From positions 1 to 21,835 of IMG/VR virus record IMGVR_UViG_3300017719_000253: DNA of 21,835 bases; one strand, 5' to 3'. Positions 9,094-21,496 of the stretch are shown here, one piece after another (positions within the stretch are counted from its first letter, which is position 1; each line of letters starts with the position of its first letter). Source of the stretch: a virus. The notes beneath the pieces are model-generated. The model was not told the DNA's origin. It ran no database searches and saw only the letters and a list, made by a program, of their open reading frames with translations. Made by a program: the position numbers and the translations under genes.

Positions 9094-9483
9094 TTACTTC
9101 CTGTATTGTCTAACCTTCTTGGCTATCCTTTTGGGTTGTCTTACAAACTGTTTTCCTTTTTTGTTGCCTGCTGCCTTTGCTCTATTAGTAGCTCTTTTTT
9201 CCGCTGGACTTAGTGCTTTCCAAGCTGCATCTGGTAAGTAACGTTTCTTTCCTCCAGACTTCTTTCCATCTGATGTTCTCCACTTTTGCTTCGTCCACTT
9301 ACTTAGTTTATTGCTTTTCTTCTTAGCACCTCTGTAACCTCCTCCTCCTTTTTTATATCTAGCTACAGCCAGCTGTGCCTTACGAGCAGACCACTGACCA
9401 GCACGACCACCTTTCGTACCAGCTTTTACTGCTGCTACGATGCGCTTCCATAATGCAGGGTTTGATTTCTTAGCGGAACTCAT
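9094..9483 (-). CDS. Very basic small protein, DUF5872-like
   Basis: This 129-aa protein is extremely rich in Lys and Arg. It contains the run GGRAGQWSARKAQLAVARYK, then KLSKWTKQKWRTSDGK, then RYLPDAAWKALSPAEKRATN, and ends in FVRQPKRIAKKVRQYRK. I recognise this pattern (WSARKAQLA / LSKWT / RYLP..W..LSP.E..ATN) as that of DUF5872-type proteins known from phages and large eukaryotic viruses; this is from memory and unchecked. The function of the family is not established. The charge suggests binding to DNA or RNA, perhaps inside the head. It is the last gene before a terminator, 3 bases after the stop of a 33-aa acidic peptide with which it could be co-expressed. Confidence 0.72.
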   Translation of the reverse strand: MSSAKKSNPALWKRIVAAVKAGTKGGRAGQWSARKAQLAVARYKKGGGGYRGAKKKSNKLSKWTKQKWRTSDGKKSGGKKRYLPDAAWKALSPAEKRATNRAKAAGNKKGKQFVRQPKRIAKKVRQYRK

Positions 9484-9486
9484 AAT

Positions 9487-9588
9487 TTAGCTGCCACAGG
9501 CTTCACAGTCTTCTGGATTATCAATCCCACAGGTTGGTTGTTCTGCTGATTCTAATTCGTTGACGAAATTTGCAAAGCTGTCGCTCAT
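9487..9588 (-). CDS. 33-aa acidic peptide with a CxxC ending
   Basis: This short frame (ATG at 9588) encodes an acidic peptide opening MSDSFANFVNELESAEQ. It has Cys at residues 20, 28 and 31 (CEAC near the end), compatible with a small metal site or a disulphide. It fills the otherwise empty stretch between the 105-aa membrane protein and the DUF5872-like gene and stops 3 bases before the latter's start (TAAATTATG). The codons look like those of neighbouring genes. A weak promoter-like TAACTTCG (one mismatch to TAnnTTTG) lies 34 bases before the start, at 9623-9630. Because of its small size the call is tentative; no function is proposed. Confidence 0.5.
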   Translation of the reverse strand: MSDSFANFVNELESAEQPTCGIDNPEDCEACGS

Positions 9589-9645: not shown

Positions 9646-9963
9646 TTATTTTTTACGCATCATGCCAAGTATAGTATCTTTTCTTTTTTCGTTTAGAGCT
9701 TTATTATTGTCCCTGTATAATATCATTGCAAATATTATAAGAACTATCATAATAGCAAAAAAGGTAGGGACTATCCAATATTGCCAATTAGCTGTAGCTA
9801 CACCTTCATTACTTTCTTCTTTCCCCTTCCAACTGTCTTTATGGTCTTTATGAACATAGATGTAGCGCATTTGAGAAACATCATAATCTACAGCTACACT
9901 ATCTTTATAGCCGCTTGCCCAATCTCTTACACTATCTGCGTAACTAGTTTTTTTCTGTGGCAT
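9646..9963 (-). CDS. Single-pass small membrane protein
   Basis: This 105-aa protein has one clear membrane segment at about residues 62-83 (IVPTFFAIMIVLIIFAMILY). It is flanked by a 60-residue polar N-terminal part rich in Lys, Asp, Tyr and Ser and a short basic C-terminal tail (KRKDTILGMMRKK). The positive C-terminus suggests that end is cytoplasmic and the N-terminal domain lies outside or in the periplasm. The start overlaps the end of the upstream 181-aa membrane gene by 20 bases, so the two are probably translated together. It belongs to the operon carrying the histidine kinase and receiver genes. It could be a holin or spanin-like lysis accessory or a signalling partner; the sequence alone does not decide. 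Confidence 0.72.
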   Translation of the reverse strand: MPQKKTSYADSVRDWASGYKDSVAVDYDVSQMRYIYVHKDHKDSWKGKEESNEGVATANWQYWIVPTFFAIMIVLIIFAMILYRDNNKALNEKRKDTILGMMRKK

Positions 9964-10489
9964 ACTTCACTCCCATTATAGTTCCTATGATACTGAAGCT
10001 GTTGGTCAGTAGTATACCAAACAGATTACTCCAAGCGTTTCCTAGTATTGTAGTGTCCTTATTAGCTAACATAGCTGTAACATACATAAGGGTAGTTAGT
10101 ATGCCTACACCTATAATAATAACCAGAGCAACCTTTACAATAAGACCTATCAGCTCAAACTGAGTACGCTTTTGCATAAGGTCTAAATCTTCAACAGCTT
10201 CATCCCTTAGTTTTTCAGCTTCACCCTTTTCATTTTGAAGCTCTATTACAAGAGCTTCTTTTACTACAGCAGCTTCTTCCAGTTCTTTGTTCTGAGCCTG
10301 TACTTGCTTAGTAACGTCAAGCCTTTTTCTTCTGGCTAGTCTGTCTTTTGTTTTGCACTCCTCTATATATGTAACGACATCTTTATGTAAAGAATCTTTA
10401 AGAATCTTTACAAAGTTTCCTTCTATGTAAACCTTTTTAGCTTTTGCTTTACGTAAGGCTTCATTTATAGTGTCGTTACCATTTATCAT
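9944..10489 (-). CDS. Coiled-coil membrane protein coupled to the receiver gene
   Basis: This 181-aa protein has three parts: a basic soluble N-terminal portion (1-55, with ALRKAKAKKVYIEGN), a charged heptad-like coiled coil (about 55-110, with KELEEAAVVKEALVIELQNE), and two membrane segments (about 113-140, LIVKVALVIIIGVGILTTLM, and about 150-174). With two helices in the membrane the soluble part and the short C-terminus are probably on the same side. Its ATG overlaps the stop of the receiver gene (ATGA), a sign of translational coupling. It is a candidate output partner of the phage two-component system, or a holin-type protein with an unusual cytoplasmic stalk. No known family was recognised; function is inferred from neighbours only. 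Confidence 0.75.
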   Translation of the reverse strand: MINGNDTINEALRKAKAKKVYIEGNFVKILKDSLHKDVVTYIEECKTKDRLARRKRLDVTKQVQAQNKELEEAAVVKEALVIELQNEKGEAEKLRDEAVEDLDLMQKRTQFELIGLIVKVALVIIIGVGILTTLMYVTAMLANKDTTILGNAWSNLFGILLTNSFSIIGTIMGVKYATEKN

Positions 10490-10923
10490 TTATATATTTT
10501 AAATGGAGCTTTTCGAGACACGTAGCCGTCATAGTCTTTTACAAACTCTTCTAAACGTGGTTCTATTTCATCAGACTTAATAATCCAAAACTGTGCGCCT
10601 ACTTCTTTCGCTTTATCAATTTCTTGGTTATCATCAGAGCTAGATATGATGCCAATAACCACTCCATTTCCATAATCTGTATTTATTTTTCTGATAAGCT
10701 CAATGCCGTCAAAGCTTGAGCCAATAATGTTTAGGTCTACAAAGACACATTCTGGTCTGTCCATTGCTGGGCTTTCTTCAAACCACTTTTTAAAAAGGCG
10801 GTCTGCTTCATCTGAAGAGTTTAGTGCTTGTAGAGATAGTGTCATGTCAAGAAGGCTACACGCATCTTCAAAGACTAAGTGAAATAGGTCTTCGTCATCT
10901 ATTAGTAGTATAGAGTCAATCAT
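10486..10923 (-). CDS. Stand-alone response-regulator receiver (REC) protein
   Basis: This 145-aa protein is a single receiver domain that would accept a phosphoryl group from the neighbouring histidine kinase. The key residues are in place: the acidic pair in LLIDDED (D9, D10), the phospho-acceptor Asp in VFVDLNI (D63), the switch Ser in GIISSSDD (S94 or S95) and the conserved Lys in WIIKSDE (K116). After the REC fold only a short tail remains (about 20 residues, YVSRKAPFKIYK), so there is no DNA-binding or enzymatic output domain and it must act through a protein partner. Both ends overlap neighbours by ATGA junctions: the kinase upstream, the coiled-coil membrane protein downstream. That partner is a natural candidate target. 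The REC assignment is secure; the target is inference. Confidence 0.92.
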   Translation of the reverse strand: MIDSILLIDDEDLFHLVFEDACSLLDMTLSLQALNSSDEADRLFKKWFEESPAMDRPECVFVDLNIIGSSFDGIELIRKINTDYGNGVVIGIISSSDDNQEIDKAKEVGAQFWIIKSDEIEPRLEEFVKDYDGYVSRKAPFKIYK

Positions 10924-12152
10924 AGTTGTATTCTTATTTTTGTTCCTTGTTCTAATTTTTCTGCTGTTATTTTAAATCCGTGTTCTTCAACGATGGCTAC
11001 ACATATATTTAATCCAAGACCGCTTCCATTTTCATTTTGGTCTTCCTTCCTAGCATATGCTTTGGAGTAGTTATCAAAGTTTTCTTGATTCATACCCCTT
11101 CCATTGTCTTCAACTACTAAAATACTTTCGCTTTCCATATAAATAGACACCCTTTTTGTAGAGTTATCATTATATTTTAGTCCGTTTCTAATTAGGTTGT
11201 CTACAGCAGTACAGAACAAAGCCTCGTTGACTTTGAAATCTACCAGTTCTTTTATTTCTACTTGTTTAATGTATGATGTTGACGATAAGTAACTCAACAG
11301 GATATCTCGTAGGTTTACTACGTTCTTTTCTAATTGAGCATCATTCTTTACAAGGTTGGTAAACTCTTTAACACCCTTGTATACTTTCTGTGTATGTATC
11401 AACCCCTCTTGTATCATTTTAAGCGGTGCTGATATTTTTAAATCTGTTATGTTTTGTTGCGTTAATCTGCGTTTTAAGGAGCTTAATCCTCTTGGTATAT
11501 ATGTGTTGATACCAGAATGCATATCGTGTCTTAGAATCTTTGCAGCGTGTTCTAGATACCCATTCTTTTTATTTACCTCAAACTCTATAATCTTCTTGTC
11601 GGTAATATCTGTAGCAATCTTAAGCACACGATAAACTTCTCCGTATGGATTTTTAATAGGGTTGTAGTTTCCGTATATCCAGAACTCCTTGCCCTTTTTA
11701 TCTATACGCAAAAACTCACCGCTACTTACTTTGCCTTTTCTCAGGTTATACCAAAAGGTATTGTATTTATCTTCATCTGTATCACTAGGCATAAACATTC
11801 TGTGATGTTTACCTATAACCTCTTCTTCAGAATAGCCTGTAGTATCACAAAATATACTGTTACAAGAAAGTATAGTTCCGTTTGTGTCAAACTCTACTAG
11901 TGCGTTAGACTTGTTGATTGCCGAAAGTGTATCGTCTATAGACTGAAATTTATACCTAACCTTTCTGATAAACTCTACAGCAACAAAAAAGAAGAAAGGC
12001 ATAAAAGAAACAATAGCTATCCATCCGTACCAAACAGATTTCCTGCTAAGTTCAGCATACTCTATAAGCAATGCGCTTTGATAAGAAAAAAAAGACACCA
12101 TAATAGCAATGGCTATTGCTAAAGATATCTTAGATAGTAACGAGAGTTTCAT
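10920..12152 (-). CDS. Membrane PAS-sensor histidine kinase
   Basis: This 410-aa protein is a complete sensor kinase. Two membrane segments (about 8-30 and 43-63) enclose only a short external loop. A PAS domain (about 75-187) carries the HHRMF motif at 116-120 and ends TDITDKK; this type is familiar from PAS domains of chemoreceptor-like sensors. The dimerisation/phospho-acceptor helix has RHDMHSGIN with H209 as likely phospho-site. The ATPase domain has an N-box (NLIRNGLKYN, 319-328), G1 (VEDNGRGM, 347-354) and G2 (GSGLGLNI, 376-383). It autophosphorylates on His and should pass phosphate to D63 of the next gene's REC protein, whose start overlaps this stop codon by ATGA. The very short periplasmic loop suggests a cytoplasmic or membrane signal. 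A kinase of host type inside a phage late operon is unusual. Divergence of the H-box from the common HExRTPL form is noted. Confidence 0.93.
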   Translation of the reverse strand: MKLSLLSKISLAIAIAIMVSFFSYQSALLIEYAELSRKSVWYGWIAIVSFMPFFFFVAVEFIRKVRYKFQSIDDTLSAINKSNALVEFDTNGTILSCNSIFCDTTGYSEEEVIGKHHRMFMPSDTDEDKYNTFWYNLRKGKVSSGEFLRIDKKGKEFWIYGNYNPIKNPYGEVYRVLKIATDITDKKIIEFEVNKKNGYLEHAAKILRHDMHSGINTYIPRGLSSLKRRLTQQNITDLKISAPLKMIQEGLIHTQKVYKGVKEFTNLVKNDAQLEKNVVNLRDILLSYLSSTSYIKQVEIKELVDFKVNEALFCTAVDNLIRNGLKYNDNSTKRVSIYMESESILVVEDNGRGMNQENFDNYSKAYARKEDQNENGSGLGLNICVAIVEEHGFKITAEKLEQGTKIRIQL

Positions 12153-12310
12153 TTTTTAGCCTTGTCTTTCCGAAGAAGATACCAGCGTTGTAAGGTGTAT
12201 CCGATAGATACGATTAGAAGCATTAGCTTGAGAGCCATCTCAACGTGAGCCATAGATATTGTAAAAGCTGTTGCGTTTAGTAATATTAATCTGAAGTCTG
12301 ATTCCGTCAT
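12149..12310 (-). CDS. 53-aa single-pass membrane protein
   Basis: Hand translation from the ATG at 12310 gives a 53-aa protein opening MTESDFRLILLNATAFTISM. One or possibly two hydrophobic stretches follow (AFTISMAHVEMALKLMLLIV, about 15-34, continuing to about 40) with a basic tail (LLRKDKAKK). Its start overlaps the stop of the upstream basic protein (TAATG) and its stop overlaps the kinase start (ATGA). It is therefore locked between two genes by translational coupling, which strongly supports that it is real despite its size. Similar tiny membrane proteins are common in marine phages, with no settled function. A small holin or an accessory of the adjacent sensor kinase are both possible. 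Which side the tail faces (cytoplasm by the positive-inside rule) is inference. Confidence 0.78.
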   Translation of the reverse strand: MTESDFRLILLNATAFTISMAHVEMALKLMLLIVSIGYTLQRWYLLRKDKAKK

Positions 12311-12603
12311 TACCACTTAACTTTATTAGCCCAATATGCTGCACTTAAAACGCCTTTAACAATGTTTTTTCTGTGACGAGCTTTGAACGATTTTCTTTTT
12401 GCTTTCATTTTAGCAGACTCGCCAGCTTTAGGTTTTCCTGCTGTGCTTGCCCCTTGTTCTCCAAAACGAATTGTTTTAATAGTAGAGCCAGACTTAGCGA
12501 CAACGATGTGAGACTTTTTAGGATGGTTAGGGGTACGCTTAGGTTTGTTATAACCAGATACTCCTGCCCTTTCTAAACGTGAGTCTTTCTTCTTCGCTTT
12601 CAT
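12310..12603 (-). CDS. Small basic phage protein of the AAYWANKVKW type
   Basis: This 97-aa, strongly basic protein contains SGYNKPKRTPNHPKKSHIVV, TIRFGEQG and an end reading FKARHRKNIVKGVLSAAYWA followed by NKVKW. I recall this as a widespread small protein of marine and other phages, commonly encoded near head genes. Its function is not known to me; a nucleic-acid-associated virion role would fit its charge. It opens the operon that continues through the two-component genes. A TAnnTTTG element ends only 4 bases before this ATG, so the mRNA may have almost no leader. No other in-frame ATG occurs before residue 66, and the conserved-looking N-terminus favours this start. Confidence 0.8.
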   Translation of the reverse strand: MKAKKKDSRLERAGVSGYNKPKRTPNHPKKSHIVVAKSGSTIKTIRFGEQGASTAGKPKAGESAKMKAKRKSFKARHRKNIVKGVLSAAYWANKVKW

Positions 12604-12670: not shown

Positions 12671-12979
12671 TTATGCAAAAGTAACAGCATCTACATTGTT
12701 TGTTGGTGCAACTACGTAGTATTTTTTGCTTTTTAACTCACCGATAGGCGATGCTAAGTCTGACATTGCTTTTTTAATTTGTAATACAATCGCATCACGA
12801 ACATTTTCGTCAGCGTGATTTTCAGTAGTCAATGTTACCAAACCACCATCAGCGTAATGAATTTTACAACTTGTACCACTGTGTTGGTCTACTGTAGCAA
12901 TACCTTCAGCAGCAATTACAATATCTGGTCTTGCAGTACCACTGTTATCGAATGGAATTTTTAAATATTTGCTTGTCAT
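12671..12979 (-). CDS. Small unknown protein, paralogue 4 of 4
   Basis: This 102-aa protein is of unknown function. It shares with the three genes upstream a layout of an N-terminal strand (KYLKIPF), a second hydrophobic block (IVIAAEGIATV), the pair HYADGGLVTLTTENHADENV around a Gly-Gly turn, and a helix (VRDAIVLQIKKAMSDLA). The closest match in the cluster is the 118-aa member: both have GG followed by HxDExxR. It is the last gene before the terminator at 12616-12645 and is separated by 12 bases from the 98-aa member. Soluble, with no membrane segment or catalytic motif. The cluster lies in the head-gene region, so a minor or decorating virion component is plausible but unproven. Confidence 0.75.
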   Translation of the reverse strand: MTSKYLKIPFDNSGTARPDIVIAAEGIATVDQHSGTSCKIHYADGGLVTLTTENHADENVRDAIVLQIKKAMSDLASPIGELKSKKYYVVAPTNNVDAVTFA

Positions 12980-12991
12980 GATAATTTTTTA

Positions 12992-13288
12992 TTAAGCTGT
13001 TGCTATTGCAGATACAGCTTCAGTTAGTGTAATATTTTTCTCTTCAACGTCTCTTATAGAAGGACTTGGAGATTTTAGAGCATCTTGAGCTGCTTCAATA
13101 CCTGCTAACAATTCTGTGTAGACCGCATCTGCAGTAGAATCATCATTATGAGTACAACTAGTCACTACTCCTCCTTTTTGAAAAATCACAGTTGTGTCAT
13201 TAGCAGTCTGTGCTATTCCAATTATATCTTTCACGGCAATCGTATGATTACCTTCACCAGTAACTGCAAATGTTATAAATCTTGCCAT
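12992..13288 (-). CDS. Small unknown protein, paralogue 3 of 4
   Basis: This 98-aa protein follows the cluster pattern: RFITFAV strand, HTIAVKDIIGI (the D-I block), TTVIFQKGGVVTSCTHNDDS (the Gly-Gly turn followed by His and Asp), a helix ending EAAQDALKS, then PSPSIRDVEEKNITL. That last segment echoes PSMDLRLKDVDCELT in the 120-aa member, so these two may be the closest pair for the C-terminal part. It has its own TAnnTTTG promoter 27 bases upstream. Function unknown; probably a small structural protein. The N-terminal ATG is preceded by an A-rich leader (AAAAAAAATAAAC), typical of Bacteroidota genes that do not rely on a Shine-Dalgarno site. Confidence 0.75.
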   Translation of the reverse strand: MARFITFAVTGEGNHTIAVKDIIGIAQTANDTTVIFQKGGVVTSCTHNDDSTADAVYTELLAGIEAAQDALKSPSPSIRDVEEKNITLTEAVSAIATA

Positions 13289-13315
13289 GTTTATTTTTTT
13301 TAATCTTTTACGCTA

Positions 13316-13323
13316 CAAAGATA
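13316..13323 (-). promoter_or_regulatory. TAnnTTTG promoter inside the paralogue cluster
   Basis: The minus strand reads TATCTTTG, 27 bases before the ATG at 13288. It lies inside a short dyad, CGCTA-TCTTTG-TAGCG (13311-13326). About 20 bases upstream is GTTAAAAG, which could be part of the -33 region. Confidence 0.66.
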
Positions 13324-13359
13324 GCGATTATTTCTTTTAACTATTTATGTTTCAATACC

Positions 13360-13716
13360 TTACACTTCTGAAACAGCTATGCTAGGATTAAAGAATGTTG
13401 CTTCATCTGTAAGCTTCGATACATTTGTGTCTCCGCTATCTACAAGAGTAGAGGCAACTGGGTAAACAACTTGGTTCTTTTTTCCTGCACTATGATAATC
13501 AGACCTTGCGAGTTTAATAAGTCTGTATATTTCGTTTCTTAAAGTTTCGTCAGTGTGACTTACTACAGGTAATTCAATAATAGCACCGCCTTCGTAAAAT
13601 ATTTTTATTTTAGTATTTTCACCGTTATCAATACTTACGATATCGTCTACACTAAAGTAAAACGGAGGAGCGTCACTAATATTTACTTGAATCTCTATTA
13701 ACTTGTGACTTTTCAT
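13360..13716 (-). CDS. Small unknown protein, paralogue 2 of 4
   Basis: This 118-aa protein fits the four-gene pattern: N-terminal strand KLIEIQVNI, the block FYFSVDDIVSI, the Gly-Gly turn in IKIFYEGGAIIELPVVSHTD followed by Glu, and a helix LRNEIYRLIKLARSD. A longer C-terminal extension (about 75-118) with VYPVASTLVDSG and a final hydrophilic stretch is unlike the shorter members. It starts 6 bases after the stop of the 120-aa member and so shares its transcript. No enzymatic motif, signal peptide or membrane segment. Function unknown; a head-associated accessory role is inferred only from location between head-fibre and scaffold genes. Confidence 0.74.
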   Translation of the reverse strand: MKSHKLIEIQVNISDAPPFYFSVDDIVSIDNGENTKIKIFYEGGAIIELPVVSHTDETLRNEIYRLIKLARSDYHSAGKKNQVVYPVASTLVDSGDTNVSKLTDEATFFNPSIAVSEV

Positions 13717-13722
13717 AATATT

Positions 13723-14085
13723 TTAAGCTAATGTTTGTTGTGTGTATGTAGCTCCTGTAGAAAGACCTACAGCAACCTGTAAAACTTCAAATGCAGTTGG
13801 AGGATATGTTAATTCACAGTCTACGTCTTTAAGTCTTAAATCCATACTAGGCATTCTGACCTCAGCTCTAGCTTTTTTGTAACTAGCTAAAGCGGTAGCT
13901 ACCTGTTCAGCGCACTTAGCCATAGTTCCTGCGGTACTAGCTTTCACCTCAGCAACATGACCGCCTTTTAAATAAAAAACTAAAGTCGTGTTTGATGAAC
14001 CTCTGCCAAAAGCTTGAATATCGTCAAGAGCAATTTTAAACTCTCCTTCGTCAGTATCTGTTTTTACTACTATGTACTTGTGCAT
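13723..14085 (-). CDS. Small unknown protein, paralogue 1 of 4
   Basis: This 120-aa protein is the first of the tandem group. It shows KYIVVKTD, then FKIALDDIQAFG (D-I block), TTLVFYLKGGHVAEVKAS (Gly-Gly turn) and a helix, AEQVATALASYKKA. A C-terminal region follows with MPSMDLRLKDVDCELTYPPT and a Gly/Thr-rich end. It is transcribed from a TAnnTTTG promoter 22 bases upstream (14108-14115). Unknown function. The group has diverged strongly in sequence while keeping the order strand, D-I block, GG turn and helix, so duplication must be old or selection for variation strong. Confidence 0.74.
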   Translation of the reverse strand: MHKYIVVKTDTDEGEFKIALDDIQAFGRGSSNTTLVFYLKGGHVAEVKASTAGTMAKCAEQVATALASYKKARAEVRMPSMDLRLKDVDCELTYPPTAFEVLQVAVGLSTGATYTQQTLA

Positions 14086-21408: not shown

Positions 21409-21423
21409 TGTTATTTAATTTAG

Positions 21424-21496
21424 TACACCAGATAGGAGTCGAACCTATAACCGACAGCTTAGAAGGCTGTTGCTCTATCCATTGAGCTACTGATGC
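21424..21496 (-). tRNA. tRNA-Arg (anticodon UCU)
   Basis: The 73-base minus-strand sequence folds as a full cloverleaf: acceptor GCATCAG/CTGGTGT (7 pairs, two G-U), D stem GCTC/GAGC, anticodon stem ACAGC/GCTGT around loop CTTCTAA, and T stem ATAGG/CCTAT around TTCGACT. The anticodon is TCT, so it reads AGA and AGG. The discriminator is A and CCA is not encoded. It lies between two protein genes on the same strand. AGA is a common Arg codon in this window, so the tRNA probably supports phage translation. Confidence 0.95.

Follow-up and report, generated by a model that had tools for sequence, protein, structure and literature searches.

A phage-borne histidine kinase, stand-alone receiver and coiled-coil membrane protein with a probable role in host lysis

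A five-gene cassette within a phage late operon

The window analysed here is the entire virus record IMGVR_UViG_3300017719_000253, a 21.8-kb linear fragment (21,835 nucleotides). Its TerL, portal and capsid proteins were assigned to PHROG head-and-packaging families, with the nearest TerL matches being from uncultured, Flavobacterium and Cellulophaga phages. The cassette lies within the late operon of a flavobacterial-type phage, and every gene of the cassette region is on the minus strand. The five overlapping genes proposed in the original prediction (9646-12310) were all open at the positions given in Table 1 and their junctions were confirmed, with 4-base overlaps (ATGA) at TM53/HK, HK/RR and RR/CC-TM and a 20-base overlap at CC-TM/TM105. 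On the upstream side, the 97-aa gene overlaps TM53 by 1 base (TAATG), and on the other side the phrog_14910 gene precedes the scaffold and capsid genes. The related genomes MW202828 and elemoA share the packaging genes and lack the cassette. No recognised lysis gene was found within the 21.8-kb window.

Table 1. Genes of the cassette and the adjoining backbone genes, with their positions in the window
Gene	Position	Strand	Description	Basis
97-aa gene	12310..12603	-	Backbone gene upstream of TM53, no function assigned in PHROG	phrog_7595
TM53	12149..12310	-	Small membrane protein of 53 aa whose tail is basic; holin candidate only	
HK	10920..12152	-	PAS histidine kinase	Pfam
RR	10486..10923	-	Stand-alone receiver without output domain	Pfam Response_reg
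CC-TM	9944..10489	-	Coiled coil and C-terminal two-helix membrane hairpin	Alignment and AlphaFold2
TM105	9646..9963	-	Single-pass membrane protein, accessory	
phrog_14910 gene	9094..9483	-	Backbone gene downstream of the cassette, no function assigned in PHROG	phrog_14910

An intact kinase and receiver

Pfam domains were detected in both HK (PAS_9, 1.3e-14; HATPase_c, 3e-15) and RR (Response_reg, 1.1e-7). HK has two N-terminal TM helices followed by a PAS domain (about 84-190), a phosphoacceptor helix, HDMHSGINTY, with H209, and an ATPase domain carrying the N, G1 and G2 boxes. The H, N, G1 and G2 boxes were kept in 98-105 of 105 HK relatives, and HDMHSGIN in all 105. In RR, D63 occupies the phosphoacceptor position and K116 is present; these residues, together with D9, D10, E11 and S94/S95, were found in 109/109 relatives. 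The prediction of a complete two-component system whose output acts at the protein level was borne out for this locus; all HK boxes and RR residues are intact, and RR has no output domain. Phosphotransfer from HK to D63 is very likely.

RR was the most conserved member, with 75 of its 145 positions conserved at 99% or more among 109 relatives. At 85% identity the relatives fell into 10 representatives for RR (109 members), 56 for HK (105) and 50 for CC-TM (108). The sensor part of HK occurred as two TM helices with PAS, two TM helices only, double PAS, a TM-less form or a form with a long extra N-terminal domain. RR and the core of the kinase thus show almost no variation; the sensor parts vary, vanish or get duplicated.

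The nearest solved relatives of the window PAS were the sensors MmoS, Aer and NifL. Its FW aligned at the MW position, with similarity at the conserved Trp position of the FAD-binding PAS domains (Aer/MmoS), and the domain may bind flavin. LOV-type light sensing was ruled out, as the flavin-binding cysteine is missing in the alignment. As in Aer, MmoS and NifL, then, the phage PAS has the FW/MW alignment and no LOV cysteine; unlike in those sensors, it is coupled to an HK core or, in the fusions described below, directly to a coil and hairpin.

A trio conserved across phages

Searches of IMG/VR retrieved at least 594 relatives of HK, 134 of RR and 167 of CC-TM, which were dereplicated to 116 loci. 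HK was present in 108 of these, RR in 111 and CC-TM in 108, while the capsid protein of the window was found in only 11. The HK-RR-CC-TM trio recurs on many unrelated phage backbones, all known from metagenomic contigs among which related loci are not independent. The same five-gene order, for which relatives had been proposed as a check, was seen in 12 dereplicated loci including the window, whereas the conserved unit comprised HK, RR and CC-TM only.

At least 1.5 kb of sequence past RR was available in 90 loci, and a CC-TM call was missing in just one of them (L025). This gap is an ORF-calling miss, since CC-TM is present in the same record. We thus found no kinase and receiver relatives lacking the membrane gene, CC-TM being next to RR wherever the sequence sufficed. 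To reduce the bias towards the window, we collected a second sample by looking for the H-box of the kinase and the tail of CC-TM through degenerate DNA patterns. In this sample 35 loci had enough sequence on either side, and the order was HK-RR-CC in 28, HK-HK-RR-CC in 4 and a PAS-CC fusion in 3. The tandem kinases suggest that several signals may feed one output.

In 85 of 107 loci HK and RR overlap by precisely 4 bases, and dN/dS was low; the arrangement is not a chance assembly, in agreement with the original prediction. On the other hand, the further expectation that the overlaps fix the expression ratios found no support in our analysis. Compared with the nearest relatives, dN/dS was 0.06-0.13 for HK, 0.02-0.07 for RR and 0.035-0.054 for CC-TM, values that place all three under evident strong purifying selection. 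TM105 was more variable than these three (0.12-0.73).

No match to CC-TM or RR was found in 50,697 GenBank phages, and HK had generic PAS-level matches only; the best of these, MT836939, encodes a PAS-containing bacterial chemoreceptor and was set aside as irrelevant. When the genomes of 84,980 species of bacteria and archaea were scanned with two exact peptide patterns, which fusions with altered motifs would escape, a single CC-TM match was detected. It lies on a phage contig, whose other genes include a terminase, a portal and a PhoH-like gene, as named from their sequence. A further 244 genomes from the phylum of the matching bin gave no match. Within the scope of these species genomes and exact patterns, the trio is to all appearances phage-only. 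PAS kinases with single-domain receivers are common in Bacteroidota, and the pair might be an ordinary host two-component system, recently captured and without a dedicated viral role. We consider this very improbable: the trio occurs in more than 100 phage loci on unrelated backbones with an invariant CC-TM partner and under purifying selection, and recent capture is ruled out by the genome scan, with its sole match on a phage contig, and by the negative same-phylum genomes.

The two small membrane genes

Relatives of TM53 (n=26) were directly upstream of HK in 24 cases, and those of TM105 (n=25) directly downstream of CC-TM in 24. In a survey of the neighbouring genes, the upstream neighbour of HK was TM53 (24 loci), a different membrane protein of 62-80 aa (28) or a holin_4_1 protein (10); that downstream of CC-TM was TM105 (27 loci), a soluble 179-aa protein (22) or others. 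Both small membrane genes are exchangeable, varying with the backbone. The relatives of TM53 share invariant D, N, E, LK and SIxYT positions. Its matches to holin profiles were marginal, the best being phrog_920 (E 0.035, in 3 of 16 members), and its comparison with T7 gp17.5 was not significant (hhalign probability 0.9%). A T7-type (class II) holin is suggestive for TM53 and not established.

The coiled-coil membrane protein

CC-TM consists of an N-terminal module (1-70), a heptad coiled coil that enters TM1, and a second TM helix (WSNLFGILLTNSFSIIGTIMGVK). AlphaFold2 predicted a single helix (36-141) entering the membrane and TM2 at 147-180, with a mean pLDDT of 79. The coil stretch between two conserved motifs was 35, 42, 49, 56 or 63 residues long in 95/95 measured proteins (10 others did not fit the search expression), so that its length changes in seven-residue steps only (35+7n). 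Selection therefore acts on the heptad register, as it should if the coil relays a signal or keeps an oligomer together. TM2 was among the best conserved regions.

No sequence or fold relative of CC-TM was found in PDB, and the viral fold search gave one match, an uncharacterised protein of an uncultured Caudovirales (46% identity). Neither the Pfam nor the PHROG holin and antiholin families gave a credible match, the holin-profile matches among 50 members being scattered, at E about 0.01.

Fusions of PAS to the coil and hairpin

Three CC-TM loci (L221, L252 and L258) have neither kinase nor receiver; instead, a PAS domain is fused to the coil and hairpin. In each, the fusion gene has a small holin-like gene on one side and a GH19-type endolysin gene on the other, with overlapping frames, and a spanin-like gene follows. 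The order in L221 is holin-like / PAS-CC-TM / GH19 / spanin-like, with the frames of the first three overlapping. A search with the PAS-CC-TM fusion retrieved 336 stretches, giving 55 dereplicated loci at which the coil and hairpin, retained in 55/55, are preceded by one or two PAS domains. An endolysin of the Phage_lysozyme/GH24, Peptidase_M15, Glyco_hydro_19 or PG-binding type was at most four genes away in 52 of the 55. In a structure model of the fusion, one helix (125-206) comes after the PAS and enters the membrane; the mean pLDDT was 75, with lower values for the membrane part.

The RRKR/QxQN motifs of the N-terminal module were present in 103-104 of 105 trio CC-TM proteins versus 0 of 55 fusions, and the PAS thus occupies the place of the module. 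It follows, as the simplest reading, that the module is the predicted docking site of the receiver. This domain swap and the invariant adjacency make signalling from RR to CC-TM likely. The coiled-coil membrane protein had been named at the outset as the obvious candidate target of RR, and on the present evidence it is the best one.

Association with lysis genes

A recognised lysis gene (amidase, holin_4_1, DUF5675 or other endolysins) was present in 63 of 116 trio loci and at most five genes away in 59, versus 39.8 expected under random placement (P<5e-5); with curated lysis families over whole long records, 23 of 35 were within 4 kb (6.6 expected), and the same test by backbone group gave 6 of 11 (2.0 expected, P about 0.005), most lysis families having been selected after the neighbourhoods were inspected and the P values being optimistic because the dereplicated loci are still related. 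In two other groups (G018; G039 and G042), the curated families were distant from the trio. Lysis regions also tend to accumulate accessory genes.

In two loci (L017 and L019), the five-gene block of the window is flanked by DUF5675 and a holin-like gene before it and by a u-spanin gene after it, the u-spanin having a lipobox and a C-terminal TM. In the nearest relatives of the window, the triad of holin-like, DUF5675 and u-spanin genes shares the strand of the trio and lies about 20 kb upstream of it, outside the span of the window. DUF5675 may be a peptidoglycan enzyme, judged by where it stands in the triad and by an HTGN...HTAGC motif. The holin-like gene (c3) had no significant match to holin profiles, and its label is based on size, topology and position. 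CC-TM has a hairpin topology and in many relatives a location in a lysis cassette, most clearly in the case of the PAS fusions; on the backbone of the window itself, the triad is some 20 kb away.

A proposed pathway and its alternatives

We favour, with moderate confidence, a signal pathway owned by the phage and controlling host lysis, in which a sensor gates CC-TM and CC-TM acts as an effector or regulator of lysis. The proposal draws on the intactness and invariance of the trio, the purifying selection, the heptad coil, the domain swap and the lysis-cassette location across backbones, all of them read from sequences. HK, held by its TM hairpin, would read a cellular signal, here through an Aer/MmoS-type PAS and plausibly the redox or respiratory state, and would phosphorylate RR at D63. 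RR would then bind the N-terminal module of CC-TM, and the continuous coiled coil would pass this binding on to the membrane hairpin, altering its state or oligomerisation. The hairpin may either promote or restrain membrane lesions alongside holin, endolysin and spanin, thereby setting the time of lysis. In the sister family the PAS, attached straight onto coil and hairpin, would do so without kinase and receiver. Lysis is the probable output; lysis timing was one of several speculations in the original prediction, and it is the one that the comparative evidence favours, as an inferred role.

Another speculation, the exclusion of other phages, gained no specific evidence. As a superinfection-exclusion or moron module, the two-component system and CC-TM would sense the envelope or energy disturbance caused by a second phage and alter the membrane to exclude the intruder, and the site in lysis regions would reflect mere late expression and tolerance of insertions. 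The late-operon insertion and the variable sensors are in keeping with this, as are the absence of the cassette from elemoA and MW202828 and its movement between backbones (TM53 of L030 has a dS of 0.11 to the window, with 1.17 for MCP). Exclusion genes are usually less conserved and less consistently placed. Moreover, the fusion gene has holin-like and endolysin genes as its two neighbours, the frames often overlapping and the endolysins being varied, and none of the known defence families in PADLOC matched when its models were compared with six proteins. We therefore regard exclusion, along with its account of the lysis-region site, as unlikely.

An equally doubtful alternative is a switch of host physiology, in which the targets of RR would be host proteins of respiration, envelope synthesis or gliding and CC-TM would only anchor RR. 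It would suit a receiver without output domain, the extremely conserved RR surface and a PAS that resembles energy-sensing PAS domains. However, TM2 is among the best conserved parts of CC-TM, and the fusions without a receiver keep the hairpin tied to PAS, so that the common output would be the hairpin and not the receiver. Returning to control of lysis, we hold the chances to be even that there is a widespread phage class in which a phosphorelay or a direct PAS sensor acts on a membrane effector gating lysis, with sensors exchanged over a fixed output.

Relation to known systems

The trio resembles canonical two-component systems with a single-domain receiver (CheY / Rcp1 type) in its intact HK boxes and receiver residues; such receivers normally have their output via protein contact, and the same logic would hold here. 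Unlike those systems, it is phage-borne, has a fixed coiled-coil membrane-hairpin partner and occurs among lysis genes. T4-type lysis inhibition (holin T with antiholins RI/RIII) and TeaA/ArrA of ICP1 are alike in that membrane proteins shift the lysis time on sensing the surroundings or the cell state. To our knowledge, neither has a kinase or a PAS, and CC-TM differs from both in having no sequence similarity to holin or antiholin families. Studies of environmental lysis control have so far dealt mainly with the lysis inhibition that superinfection triggers in T-even phages and in ICP1 (PMC7182436).

A precedent in uncultured marine phages comes from pelagiphages, which encode histidine kinases next to curli (T8SS) genes; unlike here, the cluster is one of curli genes, and the portion of that report consulted mentions no receiver partner or lysis link (PMC9599517). 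In flavophage isolates, GH19 enzymes and u-spanins count as proteins of lysis (PMC8776804), and GH19 endolysins and unimolecular spanins flank the cassette here also; on the other hand, the word "histidine" is absent from the main text of that paper, and the trio from the GenBank phages searched. The original prediction knew of no described phage system of this form, and we likewise found none in the open-access literature, nor any open-access paper joining PAS domain, holin, endolysin and lysis timing.

Lysis timing determines the burst size and generation time of a phage. If the proposal is true, this timing would be regulated according to the energy or redox state of the infected cell, and a two-component system or PAS switch in lysis genes would be a general viral route to sense the condition of the cell. 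The idea can be tested directly with the three-gene cassette and the one-gene version, and it would supply a likely function for a large protein family that has neither annotation nor solved relative. The mechanism would then span hundreds of uncultured phages, on contigs of up to about 300 kb.

Additional genes around the conserved trio

The stand-alone receiver (RR) and the coiled-coil two-helix membrane protein (CC-TM) were separated in 16 of the related loci, including L071, L114 and L077, by an inserted gene; its 165-aa product contains a short coiled coil in addition to 2–3 TM helices. Immediately upstream of the histidine kinase (HK), 28 loci encoded a membrane protein of 62–80 aa (cluster c5) in which a CPSKW-like motif is conserved. 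A 357-aa 4-TM coiled-coil protein (cluster c17) was often present downstream of CC-TM. One group of phages (L156, L154, L160, L159 and L164) carried, immediately after CC-TM, a gene for a 228-aa protein which, judged by its sequence, is a PhoH-like ATPase.

A tandem pair of HKs of the same family, with sensor domains differing between the two, preceded a single RR and CC-TM in L217, L244, L278, L297, L330, L332, L347 and L348.

As for GenBank record MT836939.1 (L430), named 'Bacteriophage sp.', it encodes a bacterial chemoreceptor as well as GGDEF-EAL type proteins and is probably bacterial DNA.

Small genes and tRNA in the window

Four small paralogous proteins (102, 98, 118 and 120 aa; 27–32% identity) are encoded in tandem immediately upstream of the 97-aa backbone gene. 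On the other side of the cassette, the 33-aa Cys-containing ORF ends C-terminally in PTCGIDNPEDCEACGS, and a 40-aa ORF resembling it was detected in L434. The window also carries a tRNA-Arg (tct) gene.

Coordinates of the accessory features in the window and related loci
Feature	Record	Position	Strand	Context
Cys-containing 33-aa peptide ORF	window	9487-9588	-	between TM105 (single-pass membrane protein gene) and 129-aa backbone gene
Tandem paralogues	window	12671-14085	-	
tRNA-Arg (tct) gene	window	21423-21496	-	
c5 example	L187	1085-1285		
c17 example	L114	9972-11045		
40-aa ORF	L434	623-745
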